From Caldifarciminota bacterium (GTDB lineage: Bacteria; Hydrothermota; Tepidihabitantia; SM23-42), in assembly GCA_020353055.1 (NCBI GenBank), contig CP070686.1, positions 375,914 to 418,787 of the forward strand: a DNA stretch of 42,874 nucleotides. The letters are read 5' to 3'. Each line of letters opens with the position of its first letter. Within the stretch, counting starts at the first letter, position 1. Below, one piece after another: positions 2,780 to 16,898 of the stretch. The position numbers were made by a program, and so were the translations under genes. A model generated the notes under the pieces. It had not been told where the DNA came from, made no database searches, and saw only the letters and a list, made by a program, of their open reading frames with translations.

Positions 2780-4012
2780 TCAGAAGTACTTGGCAAACCA
2801 ATCTTCAAATCTCTTTTTGAGGGCGTCGAACACCCCGACACCTCTCCCTCTTTTGATCAGCACCTGGTTTTTCTTCTCAAAACCGTACAGAATAAGACCC
2901 ACGCCGGTTGCATAGATCGGGTCTTGTACGATATCCGTGAGGCCGCCGATCCTCTTCGGAATGCCGATCTTTACGGGAAGATGGAATACGTCTTCAGCGA
3001 GTGCATCCAAGCCGCCTAATCTTGCGGTACCACCAGTCACAACAACGCCCGCAGCAAGGATATCATAGAACCCACTTCTCTTGATCGCTTTATTAGTAAT
3101 CATCAGGATCTCTTCGACTCGTGGAGTGACGATGGAAGCCAATAATTCCCTTGTGATGTTGCGGTCTTCGCGTCCGCCAATACCCGGAACCCTTATTTCC
3201 TCTTTTGCCTCTTCCTCCGGCACGGAGATGCTTGCATTCTTTCTCTTGATATCCTCGGCCTGTTTGTATGGCGTCCTGATGCCGATCGCGATATCATTCG
3301 TTATGTATTCACCGCCCAGCGGTATTACCTCCGAATATCTGATTGCCCCGTCGTAAAATATCGCCAGGTCGGTCGTGCCACCCCCGATGTCCAGAAGACA
3401 TACACCAAGGTCTATCTCATCCGGCTGGAGAACCGAATACGAAGAGGCTAAAGGCTGAAGTACCAAATCTTTAACCCGCAACCCAGCGCGTTCCAGTGCG
3501 GTGTAAATATTCTGCGCCGACGTTATGGCAGCAGTCACGATATGTACTTCTGCCTCCAGTTTTACGCCACTCATGCCAACCGGATCCTTGATTCCTTTTT
3601 CATTATCAACAACATACTCGATAGGTATCGCATGGATGATTTCACGATCCAGGGGCAAGGCGATCGCTTTTGCCTGTTCAATCACGCGCTCAATATCCCT
3701 CTTTGTTACCACCCCGCCTGACCGCGCCGTGGCAATCATTGCATGCGCGTTGATACTTTCAATGTGCGAACCAGAAATACCAGCGTAACAGGAGTCCACT
3801 TTCACACCGGCCATACGGGATGCTTCATCTACTGATTTTACGATCGACTCAATCGCCTTTTCGAGATTTACTATTACCCCCCGCTTCAATCCATTGGAGG
3901 GTGTTGAACCCACGCCGACGATTTTCAAATCCTCGTCTTCGACCTCAGCAATGATCGCCGCAATCTTCGTTGTCCCAAGATCGACCCCTACGATTCTCTC
4001 TTTCCTTGCCAT
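2780..4012 (-). CDS. ftsA: Cell division protein FtsA
   Basis: About 410 aa of the actin/Hsp70 ATPase fold: phosphate 1 motif GVDLGTTK near the N-terminus, the phosphate 2 segment LLDIGGGTTDLAIF, and an adenosine motif VVTGGTARLGG. FtsA anchors FtsZ filaments to the membrane. The C-terminal end (LKKRFEDWFAKYF) is an amphipathic helix as expected for the membrane-targeting sequence. Two consecutive ATG codons (4015 and 4012) follow GGAGG; the second has the better 5-nt spacing. The gene sits between the FtsQ-like gene and ftsZ, the usual order. Confidence 0.96.
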   Translation of the reverse strand: MARKERIVGVDLGTTKIAAIIAEVEDEDLKIVGVGSTPSNGLKRGVIVNLEKAIESIVKSVDEASRMAGVKVDSCYAGISGSHIESINAHAMIATARSGGVVTKRDIERVIEQAKAIALPLDREIIHAIPIEYVVDNEKGIKDPVGMSGVKLEAEVHIVTAAITSAQNIYTALERAGLRVKDLVLQPLASSYSVLQPDEIDLGVCLLDIGGGTTDLAIFYDGAIRYSEVIPLGGEYITNDIAIGIRTPYKQAEDIKRKNASISVPEEEAKEEIRVPGIGGREDRNITRELLASIVTPRVEEILMITNKAIKRSGFYDILAAGVVVTGGTARLGGLDALAEDVFHLPVKIGIPKRIGGLTDIVQDPIYATGVGLILYGFEKKNQVLIKRGRGVGVFDALKKRFEDWFAKYF

Positions 4013-4030
4013 CATGTCCTCCTTAAAACA

Positions 4031-4327
4031 TCATAAGCTATTTCTATTCCTCAAAATAATTTGTCCTCTAAAACGCATATCGATCACTACTACTTCTTCA
4101 ACATCCAGTAAGTTCAATTTTTCCAAAAGATACTTTTTCATTTTCAGATCATTGGTGCCCAAGATATACTGAACACCCTTGTATTCAACAATCCCATCCA
4201 CTCTTGATACTACGTTACCTTCGGGTATCACTTCCTCCAGCATCACGTACTGCTCTCGTTTCTGCAGCAGCACGAACGCAAATATCGCTAAAACGATGAC
4301 TAGTATTAAAACAACAATCAGCCTAAT
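4031..4327 (-). CDS. ftsQ: Miniature FtsQ/DivIB-like protein, probable AUU start
   Basis: About 98 aa in the ftsQ position, between murB and ftsA. The frame has no ATG before a membrane segment; ATT at 4327 lies 7 nt after GAGG and gives MRLIVVLILVIVLAIFAFVL, a clear single transmembrane helix. A GTG at 4273 would delete that helix. The rest, ending VVVIDMRFRGQIIL, resembles the end of the FtsQ beta domain (YVDLRY...VAVR), and GVQYILG matches its mid part. Usual FtsQ proteins are 230-290 aa with a POTRA domain between helix and beta domain; there is no room for POTRA here. It overlaps murB by 10 nt. The FtsQ assignment rests on position, topology and the weak C-terminal match. The AUU start is an inference; a base error from ATG is possible. 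Confidence 0.65.
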   Translation of the reverse strand: MRLIVVLILVIVLAIFAFVLLQKREQYVMLEEVIPEGNVVSRVDGIVEYKGVQYILGTNDLKMKKYLLEKLNLLDVEEVVVIDMRFRGQIILRNRNSL

Positions 4328-5202
4328 AATCTCACCTCTTCTTCCAATTGCACACCCGTTTTCTTACGCACTGTTTTTTTGATATGTTCGGCCAATGCAA
4401 TAACATCGGCTGCGCGCGCCTTGCCGCTATTGATTATATAATTACCGTGTTTCTCGCTCACAACAGCCCCGCCAACTGAGGCTCCCTTAAGTCCACACGT
4501 CTCGATCAACTTCCCTGCTGCATGGCCAGGCGGATTCTTGAAGAAAGATCCAGCCGAGTAACCAGCAGGATGTCTCACCTTGCGCAGATTTAAGTTTCTG
4601 GCAATCTTCTTTTGAATACTCCGCCTATTAGCCTTCTTCATCATCAAATTCACGCTTGTGATCACACTGCCATTCTCAACATTTGATTGTCGATAGGCCA
4701 ACCCAAGCTCTGCCCTGGATAGAATATTCTTCTCACCATTCTCATCTACGACGACTGCGCTGTCAGTAATATCGGCCATTGAGTTTCCGAAAGCACCAGC
4801 ATTACCCTTAACTGCACCACCCATGGTGCCTGGTATACCGGCCAGAAATTCCGCTCCACCATAACCCATGTTGAGCGACTCATTGAGAAAATCGTTCACC
4901 AGAACAGCACCACCACAACAAAGCACGCTATCCCTATGGGCAATCCGCTTGAATACCCCGCCAAGTTTCAACACAACACCAGGGAATCCCGAGTCAGCGG
5001 CCAGAATATTCGTGCCGGCGCCGATCAGAAAATAAGGTAAATCCTGTTCTCTGATTATCCTCAAGACTCTGCTCAAAGCTTCGCTCGAGTAAACACTGAC
5101 AAAAAATCGTGCCTTTCCCCCAATATGAAAGGATGTATGACTGGCCAACGGCTCATTCACAGCTACCTTAACACATGATATCCTTGAGAAGGGATTTGTC
5201 AT
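4318..5202 (-). CDS. murB: UDP-N-acetylenolpyruvoylglucosamine reductase MurB
   Basis: 294 aa FAD enzyme that reduces the enolpyruvyl group to give UDP-MurNAc. Visible family motifs: FAD-binding GAGTNILAADSGFPGVVLKL, AGIPGTMGGAVKGNAGAFG, the AGSFFKNP segment carrying the catalytic Ser, and SEKHGNYIIN near the C-terminus. Its ATG overlaps the murC stop as ATGA (5202-5199), so translation is probably coupled. Confidence 0.96.
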   Translation of the reverse strand: MTNPFSRISCVKVAVNEPLASHTSFHIGGKARFFVSVYSSEALSRVLRIIREQDLPYFLIGAGTNILAADSGFPGVVLKLGGVFKRIAHRDSVLCCGGAVLVNDFLNESLNMGYGGAEFLAGIPGTMGGAVKGNAGAFGNSMADITDSAVVVDENGEKNILSRAELGLAYRQSNVENGSVITSVNLMMKKANRRSIQKKIARNLNLRKVRHPAGYSAGSFFKNPPGHAAGKLIETCGLKGASVGGAVVSEKHGNYIINSGKARAADVIALAEHIKKTVRKKTGVQLEEEVRLLG

Positions 5203-13826: not shown

Positions 13827-15438
13827 AATGATGAGAGTTCATTTGATAAAGACTCTGTGCAATTTCCTTGAAGACCGGTGCCACGATCGTGCTTGCCCAG
13901 TAACCACTCTTGGGTTCATCGATCATCAGCATAATCAAGTAATCAGGCTTCTCGGCTGGGAAAAACCCGACAAAAGTAGCGATCACTGCGCTCGTCGAAT
14001 AAGAACCATTAACGACCTTTTGCGCGGTTCCAGTCTTGCCCGCAATTTTCATATCGTTGAAGGCCGCTGCCGTACCACTTCCTTCTTCAACGACGGCACA
14101 GAGTATGTCGGTGACGCTGCGTGCCGTGGATTCGTCAACCACACGACGAATCCGGAGCGGATTCACTTCGTATATGGTTTTTGCCCCTTTCCTGACCGCC
14201 TGCACGATATTCGGTTTCTGCAAAACACCGTCGTTGGCAATTACTTGATAGGCCATGGCAAGCTGCAGCATATTCACGGTAAGCCCTTGTCCAAAAACCA
14301 GAGTTGCAAAATCGATATCGTTCATCTTCACAGCATCTGGTAAACGGCCGCGCACTTCACCCGGAAATTCAATTCCGGTCAATTCCCCAAATCCAAAATC
14401 TCTTACGAAGAGAAGAAATCTCTCGCGGTCGAATTTTCTCGACAATTTTACCATTGCCACATTACTTGAATGGGCGACCGCCTGCTTGAGCGTTACTACT
14501 CCATAGTTACGGTAATCATTGATCGTGTGACCTCGTATCTTTATCTTACCCGCCTCGGTGTCGATCTTATCTCCTTCCTGAGCACCATTCAGCAGCGCAA
14601 AAGTCAACGCCAATAATTTAAATGTGGATCCTGGTTCGAATTCGTCGCAGATAATATGATTTCTCTGGTCGCCATTCTTGCCAACGTTGACCATGGCGAG
14701 AATGTTCCCGGTTTCCGGATCAACAATCAAACCGGCGGCCAAACGCGCGTTTTCTTTCTCCAGACAATCATTCAATTTATCATGAAGGATCGCCTGAAGC
14801 TGGAGGTCTACCGTGAGAAAAATATCCCCACCGGGTCGGGGTTCCTGCTCAGGGTAATTATGGTACGGGAAGATCCCACCAGCTGGATCCTTCTGATATA
14901 TCGCGAAACCCGATTCACCGCTTAGTATGTCATCAAACTGCAACTCCATACCCTCGATACCGCGATTATCCATACCACACTTGCCGATCATACTGGTAAA
15001 AATCTCAGGCATATTGTATCGCCGGTTAAGATCGTGGGTGTAGCCGATACTTGGGTCGTTGATCGCCAGATAGCTGTCGCGCCGCGTAATATCCACTTTC
15101 ATCTCTACCCAGAAGAAATCGCCCTTATCGACCAGTTGCCTCACCTCTTTTCTTGATCGACCAGAAAGTCTGGATATTTTACGGACAAGAGCGGCCGCAT
15201 CACGTGCATAGCGCGGCGTACAAAAAACAGAGAAACATGGCTCGGAAGTAGCAATCGGCACACCGTTGCGGTCATAGATATTACCGCGCGCTCCTAACAA
15301 TACGAATTTCTTCTCATGCTGCTGTTTGGCTCTCTTTTCGTAGTAATGATGTCTGAAACATTGAATATAAAAAAGATATGAAAAGAAGATCAAGGACACA
15401 AAGAAAAGAAGGAAATTGAGCATTTTTGTCCGTATCAT
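13813..15438 (-). CDS. ftsI: Septal transpeptidase FtsI (class B PBP, PBP3-like)
   Basis: 541 aa: short cytoplasmic start, one transmembrane helix (about 8-27), PBP dimerisation domain beginning GARGNIYDRNGVPIATS, then the transpeptidase domain. The penicillin-binding triad is intact: STFK at about 271-274, SSN at 324-326 and KTG at 468-470. It crosslinks septal peptidoglycan with FtsW. No PASTA domain is visible. The ATG overlaps ftsL as ATGA. Confidence 0.96.
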   Translation of the reverse strand: MIRTKMLNFLLFFVSLIFFSYLFYIQCFRHHYYEKRAKQQHEKKFVLLGARGNIYDRNGVPIATSEPCFSVFCTPRYARDAAALVRKISRLSGRSRKEVRQLVDKGDFFWVEMKVDITRRDSYLAINDPSIGYTHDLNRRYNMPEIFTSMIGKCGMDNRGIEGMELQFDDILSGESGFAIYQKDPAGGIFPYHNYPEQEPRPGGDIFLTVDLQLQAILHDKLNDCLEKENARLAAGLIVDPETGNILAMVNVGKNGDQRNHIICDEFEPGSTFKLLALTFALLNGAQEGDKIDTEAGKIKIRGHTINDYRNYGVVTLKQAVAHSSNVAMVKLSRKFDRERFLLFVRDFGFGELTGIEFPGEVRGRLPDAVKMNDIDFATLVFGQGLTVNMLQLAMAYQVIANDGVLQKPNIVQAVRKGAKTIYEVNPLRIRRVVDESTARSVTDILCAVVEEGSGTAAAFNDMKIAGKTGTAQKVVNGSYSTSAVIATFVGFFPAEKPDYLIMLMIDEPKSGYWASTIVAPVFKEIAQSLYQMNSHHYAAK

Positions 15439-15686
15439 TCGATCACCCCGAGTATATCATCCATCTCTGGAAAAGTGTATCCCATCTCCTTAGCCGCGGA
15501 TTCAATGTAAGCAAGATTTGCGATATCAATCAATCTTGACTCTAATTGTTTTCTCTCGTTCTGTAGTTCAACAACTTCGATTCCGAGATCTTCCTTCCGC
15601 ACTTCAATCTTGACCAACTCACTTTCAATGAAAACAAGTAGGAACAAGTACACTATGATTGAAACGAATATTATTAAGACGCGCAT
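15435..15686 (-). CDS. ftsL: FtsL-like division protein
   Basis: 83 aa, single-pass: a hydrophobic helix (about residues 2-20) followed by a heptad-rich coiled coil (EVRKEDLGIEVVELQNERKQ) and a C-terminal segment IESAAKEMGYTFPE typical of FtsL/DivIC ends. Identity rests on topology, size and the position between rsmH and ftsI, the standard ftsL site. FtsL usually forms a complex with FtsQ and FtsB; FtsB is not seen here. Overlaps rsmH by 13 nt and ftsI by 4 nt. Confidence 0.88.
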   Translation of the reverse strand: MRVLIIFVSIIVYLFLLVFIESELVKIEVRKEDLGIEVVELQNERKQLESRLIDIANLAYIESAAKEMGYTFPEMDDILGVIE

Positions 15687-16564
15687 TTTTCGAGTACCCT
15701 CAACTTAGCGCTCCTGACTCTGGGATTCAGACTAATTTCCTTTTCTGACGGTTTTATTGCTTTCTTGTTCAGTAACCGCGCTTTTTTTTCTATCTTTAAG
15801 TCCCTGAAAAAAAATTTAACGATTCTGTCCTCACCTGAATGATACGAGATCACAACCATCCTGCCTCTTCCGCTCAACCTTCCGAAAGCAACAGGCAATG
15901 CCGCCGCGAGATTGGTCAATTCTTCATTCGTCCAAATCCTCAGTGCCTGAAATACTTTCTGTAGGTTCTTCTTGAGGAATCGGCGCGGTACTGATTCTTC
16001 AATCAATTTGCTCAATTGTAGAGTAGAATCGAGACTGACTCGCGACTCATATATCTTCTGACCAAGCTTGCGGTAATTACGCACGTCACCGAAGTCTTTC
16101 AGCACCTGAATGACTTCGTGCTTTTGAGCATGTTGTAGCCGGTTGCGCAACGACATGGTCTTGGGCGACATCCGCATCAAAAGACGACCCTCCCGATCAT
16201 AACTGAATCCACGGGAAGGCGTGGTCAGTTGATGGTATGAAACACCGAGGTCAAACAGGATGCCGTCGACGCTCCCGACGTTCAACTTGTCAAGGATTAA
16301 ATCTAGATTAATGAAGTTATCCTCTGTGAGACAACAACGACTGCTGAAGGCGGCCGTTCTTTTTCTACTGTACTCAATCGCATCAGGATCACAGTCGACA
16401 CCGATGAATTTTGCATCTTTTGTGCTGTTCAACATTGCCATGAGATGACCAGCCCCACCCACTGTGCAGTCAAGATAAGTACTTCCTTCCCTCAGATCCA
16501 TATACTTAATAACTTCATCCAAGAGAGCAGGTTGATGATAAACTTGTTGCCGTCGATCAGGCAA
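15674..16564 (-). CDS. rsmH: 16S rRNA m4C1402 methyltransferase RsmH (MraW)
   Basis: 296 aa SAM-dependent enzyme methylating N4 of C1402 in 16S rRNA. N-terminus YHQPALLDEVIKYMDL is the family signature, followed by the SAM site LDCTVGGAGH, GILFDLGVSYHQL and a late VISYHSGEDRIVK. The start is TTG at 16564; no upstream ATG keeps the signature, and the codon overlaps the end of the STAS gene. A weak purine stretch (AAAGAG) precedes it. Confidence 0.95.
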   Translation of the reverse strand: MPDRRQQVYHQPALLDEVIKYMDLREGSTYLDCTVGGAGHLMAMLNSTKDAKFIGVDCDPDAIEYSRKRTAAFSSRCCLTEDNFINLDLILDKLNVGSVDGILFDLGVSYHQLTTPSRGFSYDREGRLLMRMSPKTMSLRNRLQHAQKHEVIQVLKDFGDVRNYRKLGQKIYESRVSLDSTLQLSKLIEESVPRRFLKKNLQKVFQALRIWTNEELTNLAAALPVAFGRLSGRGRMVVISYHSGEDRIVKFFFRDLKIEKKARLLNKKAIKPSEKEISLNPRVRSAKLRVLEKCAS

Positions 16565-16898
16565 AACTCTTTAGCGCAGCCCTGCGTGAAGGATAGATTT
16601 CAAAAGGATAGAAACCGTATAATCTTAGAATGTCGTAGAGGTAAGGCGAAACATTAACAAGTTTTATGTCGCCTCCATATTTTTTGAATTTCTGTTGGTA
16701 ATCGATGAGCCAACCGACGACCTTATAGTTAATATGGCTGACTCTCGACAGGTCTATTATTATATTAACGTCACCCTCTTCGATCATTTGTTTCAGCGAG
16801 AGCTCGATCTTCTCAAAACCCTTTTCATCGATTTCGCCACTCGGTAAAAAGAAAGATACTTTCTTATCTTTGATTGCCTCAACTGCTTGTATTTTCAT
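16557..16898 (-). CDS. STAS-domain protein inside the dcw operon
   Basis: 113 aa, entirely one STAS (anti-sigma-factor antagonist-like) domain: GEID near residue 20, the central strand-loop IIIDLSRVSHINYKVVGWL, and GGDIKLVNVSPYLYDILRL. In SpoIIAA-type proteins the loop after the DLS strand reads DSSG and its Ser is phosphorylated; here it is NYKV, so the phosphorylatable Ser is missing. It has its own strong ribosome site (AGGAGG, 4 nt before ATG) and overlaps mraZ by 20 nt. A regulatory or scaffold role in wall synthesis or division is inference from position only. No partner kinase is nearby. Confidence 0.85.
   Translation of the reverse strand: MKIQAVEAIKDKKVSFFLPSGEIDEKGFEKIELSLKQMIEEGDVNIIIDLSRVSHINYKVVGWLIDYQQKFKKYGGDIKLVNVSPYLYDILRLYGFYPFEIYPSRRAALKSFA

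Follow-up and report, generated by a model that had tools for sequence, protein, structure and literature searches.

A strongly reduced, FtsQ-derived protein with a conserved AUU start codon overlapping murB

FtsQ/DivIB genes characteristically lie next to ftsA, on its upstream side, in the dcw cluster, and in the 42,874-nucleotide stretch of DNA analyzed here (the window) this location is occupied by a small open-reading frame, which raises the questions of whether so short a product can be an FtsQ and where its translation begins. On the minus strand of the window, the genes run murC, murB, the small open-reading frame, ftsA (starting at ATG 4015 or ATG 4012), and ftsZ, and the host genome is a single contig of 2.69 Mb. 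An earlier note, made from the letters of the window, had read the frame as a miniature FtsQ of about 98 codons that lacks the POTRA domain and probably starts at AUU, and its placement between murB and ftsA was confirmed. The predicted product of 98 residues begins IRLIVVLILVIVLAIFAFVLLQKREQYV... and has the C-terminal end VIDMRFRGQIILRNRNSL. At the head of the same cluster, between mraZ and rsmH, lies a STAS-domain protein (16557–16898, minus strand, Pfam STAS E = 5.5e-13), where a domain of the anti-sigma-antagonist type is unusual.

The homologue search took in 60 relatives, and within the order, which comprises the host's own family (f1) and a sister family (f2), 26 of 27 genomes have the small gene in an identical slot and frame; comparison of the same slot in related genomes, which the earlier note had proposed as a check, thus found that the order carries the mini gene and not a full-length FtsQ. 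The sole exception, G012 (locus L088), has Ns in ftsA and upstream sequence that is not murB, leaving the slot unreadable; this genome is therefore uninformative for the gene, and the run of Ns is probably an assembly or masking problem. Across the body of the gene, dN/dS was 0.08–0.33 in the pairs that gave usable values, resembling that of murB. Together with the conserved slot and frame, these values mark the frame as a genuine protein gene under constraint rather than a frameshifted FtsQ. The minus strand around its start showed neither a promoter nor a terminator signal.

Table 1 Features of the locus in window coordinates, and states of the murB–ftsA slot in families of the phylum
Feature	Position	Strand	Details
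mini-ftsQ gene	4031..4327	-	98 codons + stop, AUU start; slot murB/ftsA
murB	4318..5202	-	Pfam MurB_C + FAD_binding_4
ftsA	2780..4015	-	Pfam FtsA + SHS2_FTSA
mini-ftsQ start / murB 3′ end overlap	4318..4327	-	10 nt; murB ends LLG-stop
AUU initiation codon	4325..4327	-	ATT in 22/22 f1 genomes; overlapping murB synonymous positions invariant
Shine-Dalgarno GAGGTG	4333..4338	-	within murB codons E-V; murB GAG codon invariant in 22/22
Single transmembrane helix	4265..4324	-	residues 2–21, AlphaFold2 model
FtsQ beta-domain remnant	4046..4216	-	residues 38–94; strand-strand-strand-helix-strand-strand; from model, Foldseek and profile-profile comparison
D-M-R-F motif	4070..4081	-	F86 falls on the FtsB-docking residue of E. 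coli FtsQ (Y248) in the alignment
FtsL-like bitopic protein, partner candidate	15435..15686	-	83 residues, between rsmH and ftsI; DivIC-like, E = 2e-4, below Pfam cut-off
Full-length FtsQ in slot			f11–f16, f29–f31
Short, POTRA-less FtsQ in slot			f1–f3, f17, f18, f28; f19 and f21 more doubtful
No ftsQ, murB adjoins ftsA			f4–f9, f22, f25–f27
No ftsQ, murC adjoins ftsA			f32, f33

Searches of the product against Pfam, NCBIfam, and PDB sequences gave no family match, only chance matches, and when it was aligned with E. coli FtsQ alone, the similarity was not significant. A profile of 25 orthologues, searched against 147 genomes of the phylum, matched the C-terminal 45–65 residues of open-reading frames that fill the murB–ftsA slot elsewhere, in other families (L122, E = 2e-7; L123, E = 4e-6; also L124 and L125), which are mostly full-length FtsQ with frames of ~213–266 codons. 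The reverse search with a full-length profile matched the window gene at positions 181–227 of 228 (E = 4e-4), and hhalign of the short against the full-length sets gave an E-value of 1e-8 and a probability of 95.7 over 56 columns. POTRA_1 scored above the Pfam cut-off in the full-length relatives from G070, G072, and G130, and the first nine PDB matches of the G072 protein model (pLDDT 88.5) were FtsQ, with E-values down to 2e-11. Weak matches of the full-length profile elsewhere, to proteins named by eye as a TPR protein, a Sua5-type protein, an endonuclease, and an OmpA-like protein, were set aside.

The small protein consists of one membrane helix and ~60 residues, and one of its five AlphaFold2 models was far better than the others (pLDDT 82 vs 57–60). 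When this model was compared with 350,542 PDB chains using Foldseek, all ten top matches were FtsQ (best probability 0.98), as the earlier reading had anticipated; the E-values were weak, 0.07 at best, which is no surprise for a piece of 60 residues. Its elements (three strands, a helix, two strands) follow one another as the final six do in the full-length model. The FtsQ-type POTRA domain (PF08478) is absent, with no match above cut-off anywhere in the class; POTRA matches in the class fell mostly in frames of ~570–790 codons, often several in each, and have the look of multi-POTRA outer-membrane proteins, not of FtsQ. The beta domain (PF03799) gave no Pfam match in the small protein, and its C-terminal part is homologous by profile and fold. 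The proposal of an FtsQ without POTRA therefore held, and so did that of an ending like the FtsQ beta domain, with the refinement that what is kept is the terminal portion of this domain (three strands, helix, two strands) and not all of it.

Judged from profiles and model, the protein is derived from FtsQ by loss of POTRA and of the first part of the beta domain, and since the defining POTRA was tested for and is absent, we name it an FtsQ-derived mini-protein (mini-FtsQ) and not a canonical FtsQ. It resembles FtsQ/DivIB (E. coli FtsQ, 2VH1, 6H9O; PF08478 + PF03799) in its slot before ftsA, its one N-terminal membrane helix, its C-terminal beta-domain piece with a D-x-R-F/Y FtsB-docking motif, and its partner FtsB with a conserved tail, but differs in having neither the POTRA (alpha) domain nor the opening part of the beta domain, in its length (98 vs ~215–280 residues), and in its AUU start. 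The Chlamydia FtsQ homologue, likened here by its description only, was also divergent and overlooked by ordinary annotation (PMC4643143). In a literature search in which subscription journals were thinly covered, neither an FtsQ without POTRA nor an ftsQ started by AUU came up. We regard the protein as an FtsQ that has been strongly cut down and whose start codon is unusual and under selection, and not as categorically new.

In E. coli, FtsB residues 64–87 bind FtsQ around Y248, where Y248F complements while Y248W and Y248K fail (PMC6134095). The docking position is F in 17 and Y in 8 of the 25 short proteins and F in 19 of 19 full-length relatives, and the D matching E. coli D245 is present in all 25 short proteins. 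FtsB of the window genome (G000, L234; DivIC E = 5e-10) ends LGMIKKDEKIYLIHKK. With a tail pattern that was written after sight of the sequences, this FtsB ending was found in 27 of 27 genomes with a short FtsQ, 18 of 18 with a full-length FtsQ, and none of 25 without FtsQ, or 15 families against 6, counting families that are mutually related and leaving out f5, f8, f19, f21, f22, and f25–f27, in which FtsB was not identified. The FtsB of f32 and f33 is without the tail, stopping early, right after LGIE/FGIE (...REKFGIE), and that of f4, f6, f7, and f9, which have no FtsQ, carries an unrelated tail. The simplest reading would be that mini-FtsQ still binds FtsB by the same strand.

Reading of the murB–ftsA slot in more than 100 genomes distinguished full-length, short, and missing FtsQ (Table 1), and in loci L143, L146, L153, and L155 of f32 and f33, murB and ftsQ are both missing from the slot. 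The presence of full-length, POTRA-containing FtsQ in other families of the phylum indicates that the reduction took place within the lineage. An intermediate FtsQ is found at L138 (G121, f28), a 156-codon frame from which POTRA is gone and in which more of the beta domain is kept. On the murB tree, the short state needs seven changes, at least three of them forced by well supported branches, a count that is rough because it comes from a single-gene tree. The short slot proteins of f19 and f21 (L164–L166, L174–L181) are without the aromatic docking residue, and FtsB was not confidently found there; these families are possibly a further stage in the decay of the FtsQ–FtsB pair.

The AUU start codon is rare and is best known from infC, the gene for IF3. 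It had been proposed here on the ground that no ATG, GTG, or TTG would spare the membrane helix, and indeed the first such codon in frame is GTG 4273, codon 19, which lies inside or behind the helix and as a start would strip it from mini-FtsQ; CTG 4321 (codon 3) is the sole other near-cognate start. The ATT at 4327–4325 lies 7 nt behind the GAGG at 4338–4335 and is followed by AAR or AGG in all 22 readable f1 genomes. Conservation is confined to this ATT and does not extend to the neighboring ATT 4330, which bears out the choice between the two: the codon ahead of the start varies (ATT, ACT, AAT, GAC, GAT, GTT, or GAG), as does the second codon after it (CTG, GTG, ATG, ATA, or CTA), and in 9 of the 22 genomes this codon 3 is itself one of the canonical starts GTG and ATG. 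Since the ATT is present in every readable family member, all independent assemblies, the sequencing error at 4325–4327 that had been raised as a caution is ruled out.

The start codon sits in the last murB codons in the other frame (xxA TTA), and the constraint on it can be read from synonymous positions. Across the 22 f1 genomes, the third base is invariant in only 5 of 297 murB codon columns, and three of these five are that of the Shine-Dalgarno GAG, the A opening AUU, and the final A of the TTA behind AUU, indicating that AUU is under selection and is not a sequencing error. Column 333 of murB is TTA in 22 of 22 genomes, TTA accounting for 4–55% of murB Leu codons per genome, and no other conserved Leu column has a uniform codon. 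Because the f1 MurB proteins are well diverged, the invariance of TTA and GAG goes beyond shared ancestry alone. The third base of the mini-ftsQ start is also the second base of a murB codon, in which T is required for a hydrophobic residue; AUG, GUG, and UUG are therefore barred in this register, and AUU is, we infer, the most favorable start compatible with murB. The gene of f2 and f3 opens with ATG, which overlaps the murB stop in the common ATGA form. No unusual RNA structure was found around the mini-ftsQ start (z +1.3), so structured control of it is unsupported.

The infC gene of the window genome (L194, around G000:C1:538982–539191) also starts with AUU, after AAGGAGGTGAAA, and in the same family it reads AAGGAGGTGAAA ATT AAG, 14 of 15 genomes having AUU there and the remaining one, G008, AUC; in G015 the start was read directly, the start-pattern match there having picked an upstream codon. 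The two genes are alike in an AUU followed by AAR, a strong Shine-Dalgarno sequence (GGAGGTG), and conservation in the same genomes, and in mini-ftsQ AUU is kept against synonymous drift. They differ in that infC encodes IF3 itself, whereas the mini-ftsQ start overlaps another gene and is invariantly AUU. In E. coli, the translation of infC, which begins with ATT, is repressed by IF3 itself, and Streptomyces sigR, with a conserved GTC start and the ribosome-binding site AGGAGGTG, is likewise repressed by IF3 (PMC5472188). The sigR case is similar in its conserved non-canonical start, extended Shine-Dalgarno sequence, and limited dosage of one complex partner, but the start is GTC and not AUU, the product is a transcription regulator, and the effect is experimentally proven (PMC5472188). 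In S. aureus, cvfC1 has a conserved AUU and an extended Shine-Dalgarno sequence, and non-canonical starts give ~10% of AUG reporter expression (PMC13009471); AUU starts are further given for E. coli pcnB, in a title cited within PMC13009471, and for B. burgdorferi pncA (PMC13398362). Like mini-ftsQ, these three belong to the few genes, on chromosomes or plasmids, that start with AUU, but none is a division gene. We know of no murB overlap for any of them. By analogy with such genes, mini-FtsQ output may be low and IF3-sensitive.

Two alternatives concern the start itself. Translation could begin two codons downstream, at the CTG of the window and the GTG, ATG, ATA, or CTA of its relatives, overlapping the murB stop as the f2 ATG does; f2 and f3 have ATG in exactly this ATGA arrangement, and GTG or ATG stands at the codon in 9 of the 22 in f1. 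We give this a small chance, since 6 of 22 genomes combine a murB ending in TAA with ATA or CTA at this codon, the codon is CTG in 7 of 22, its spacing from the conserved GAGG is 13 nt, and the invariant synonymous bases fall at ATT and not at the downstream codon. Programmed −1 frameshifting joining MurB to the small frame, with no separate start, would suit the overlapping frames and the Shine-Dalgarno-like sequence upstream, but it is scarcely credible given that there is no slippery heptamer, that the site is variable (TTA, CTA, ATA, ACA, or AGA, then TTA) in a manner that prevents re-pairing, and that in two genomes a stop closes the ftsQ frame directly ahead of ATT.

The other two concern the protein. 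Replacement of FtsQ in the slot by an unrelated small membrane protein would account for the short length, the missing Pfam/NCBIfam match, and the weak match to the distant E. coli FtsQ; the reciprocal profile matches and hhalign E-value of 1e-8 to the full-length slot FtsQs, the fold match, the conserved D-x-R-F/Y, and the intermediate-length, POTRA-less form in G121 make it very improbable. Slightly less probable again is a decaying FtsQ relic without function, to which the complete loss of the gene from other families of the class might point, because the gene is conserved in about a dozen genera with dN/dS of 0.08–0.33, the docking residue is conserved, the start and Shine-Dalgarno sequence are under selection, and the FtsB tail is kept only where the gene is kept.

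We therefore favor, as highly probable, a POTRA-less FtsQ with a shortened beta domain that would act as a minimal FtsB–FtsL clamp, started by AUU in the end of murB and made at low output. Mini-FtsQ keeps the membrane helix and, joined to it by a short linker, the C-terminal strand–helix–strand piece that binds the FtsB tail in model bacteria, and with these it would most likely hold the FtsB–FtsL pair at the membrane beside FtsW–FtsI. Because POTRA is the part of FtsQ linked to FtsK (PMC8998562), mini-FtsQ may be independent of FtsK, dispensing with POTRA-based recruitment. Initiation at AUU would be driven by the strong Shine-Dalgarno sequence, probably helped by murB termination a few bases downstream, and the AUU would keep FtsQ output low. 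A more speculative extension, which we think rather unlikely, is that ftsQ and infC form a small AUU regulon in which free IF3 sets the amount of FtsQ, the protein being a bare FtsB clamp for which POTRA recruitment is unneeded; if so, septal assembly would follow the state of translation initiation.

The reduced protein reveals the part of FtsQ that evolution retains, namely the membrane anchor and the FtsB-binding strand. This natural variation supports the Y248 region as the core of FtsQ function and supports POTRA-based recruitment as dispensable in some lineages, and the loss of the FtsB tail together with FtsQ makes the FtsQ–FtsB contact testable by evolution alone. Gene callers restricted to ATG, GTG, and TTG would cut mini-ftsQ into its membrane helix or miss it. 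Very few genes are known for a conserved AUU start, and this locus adds a division gene to them; in a poorly known phylum, the AUU-started FtsQ spans one whole family.
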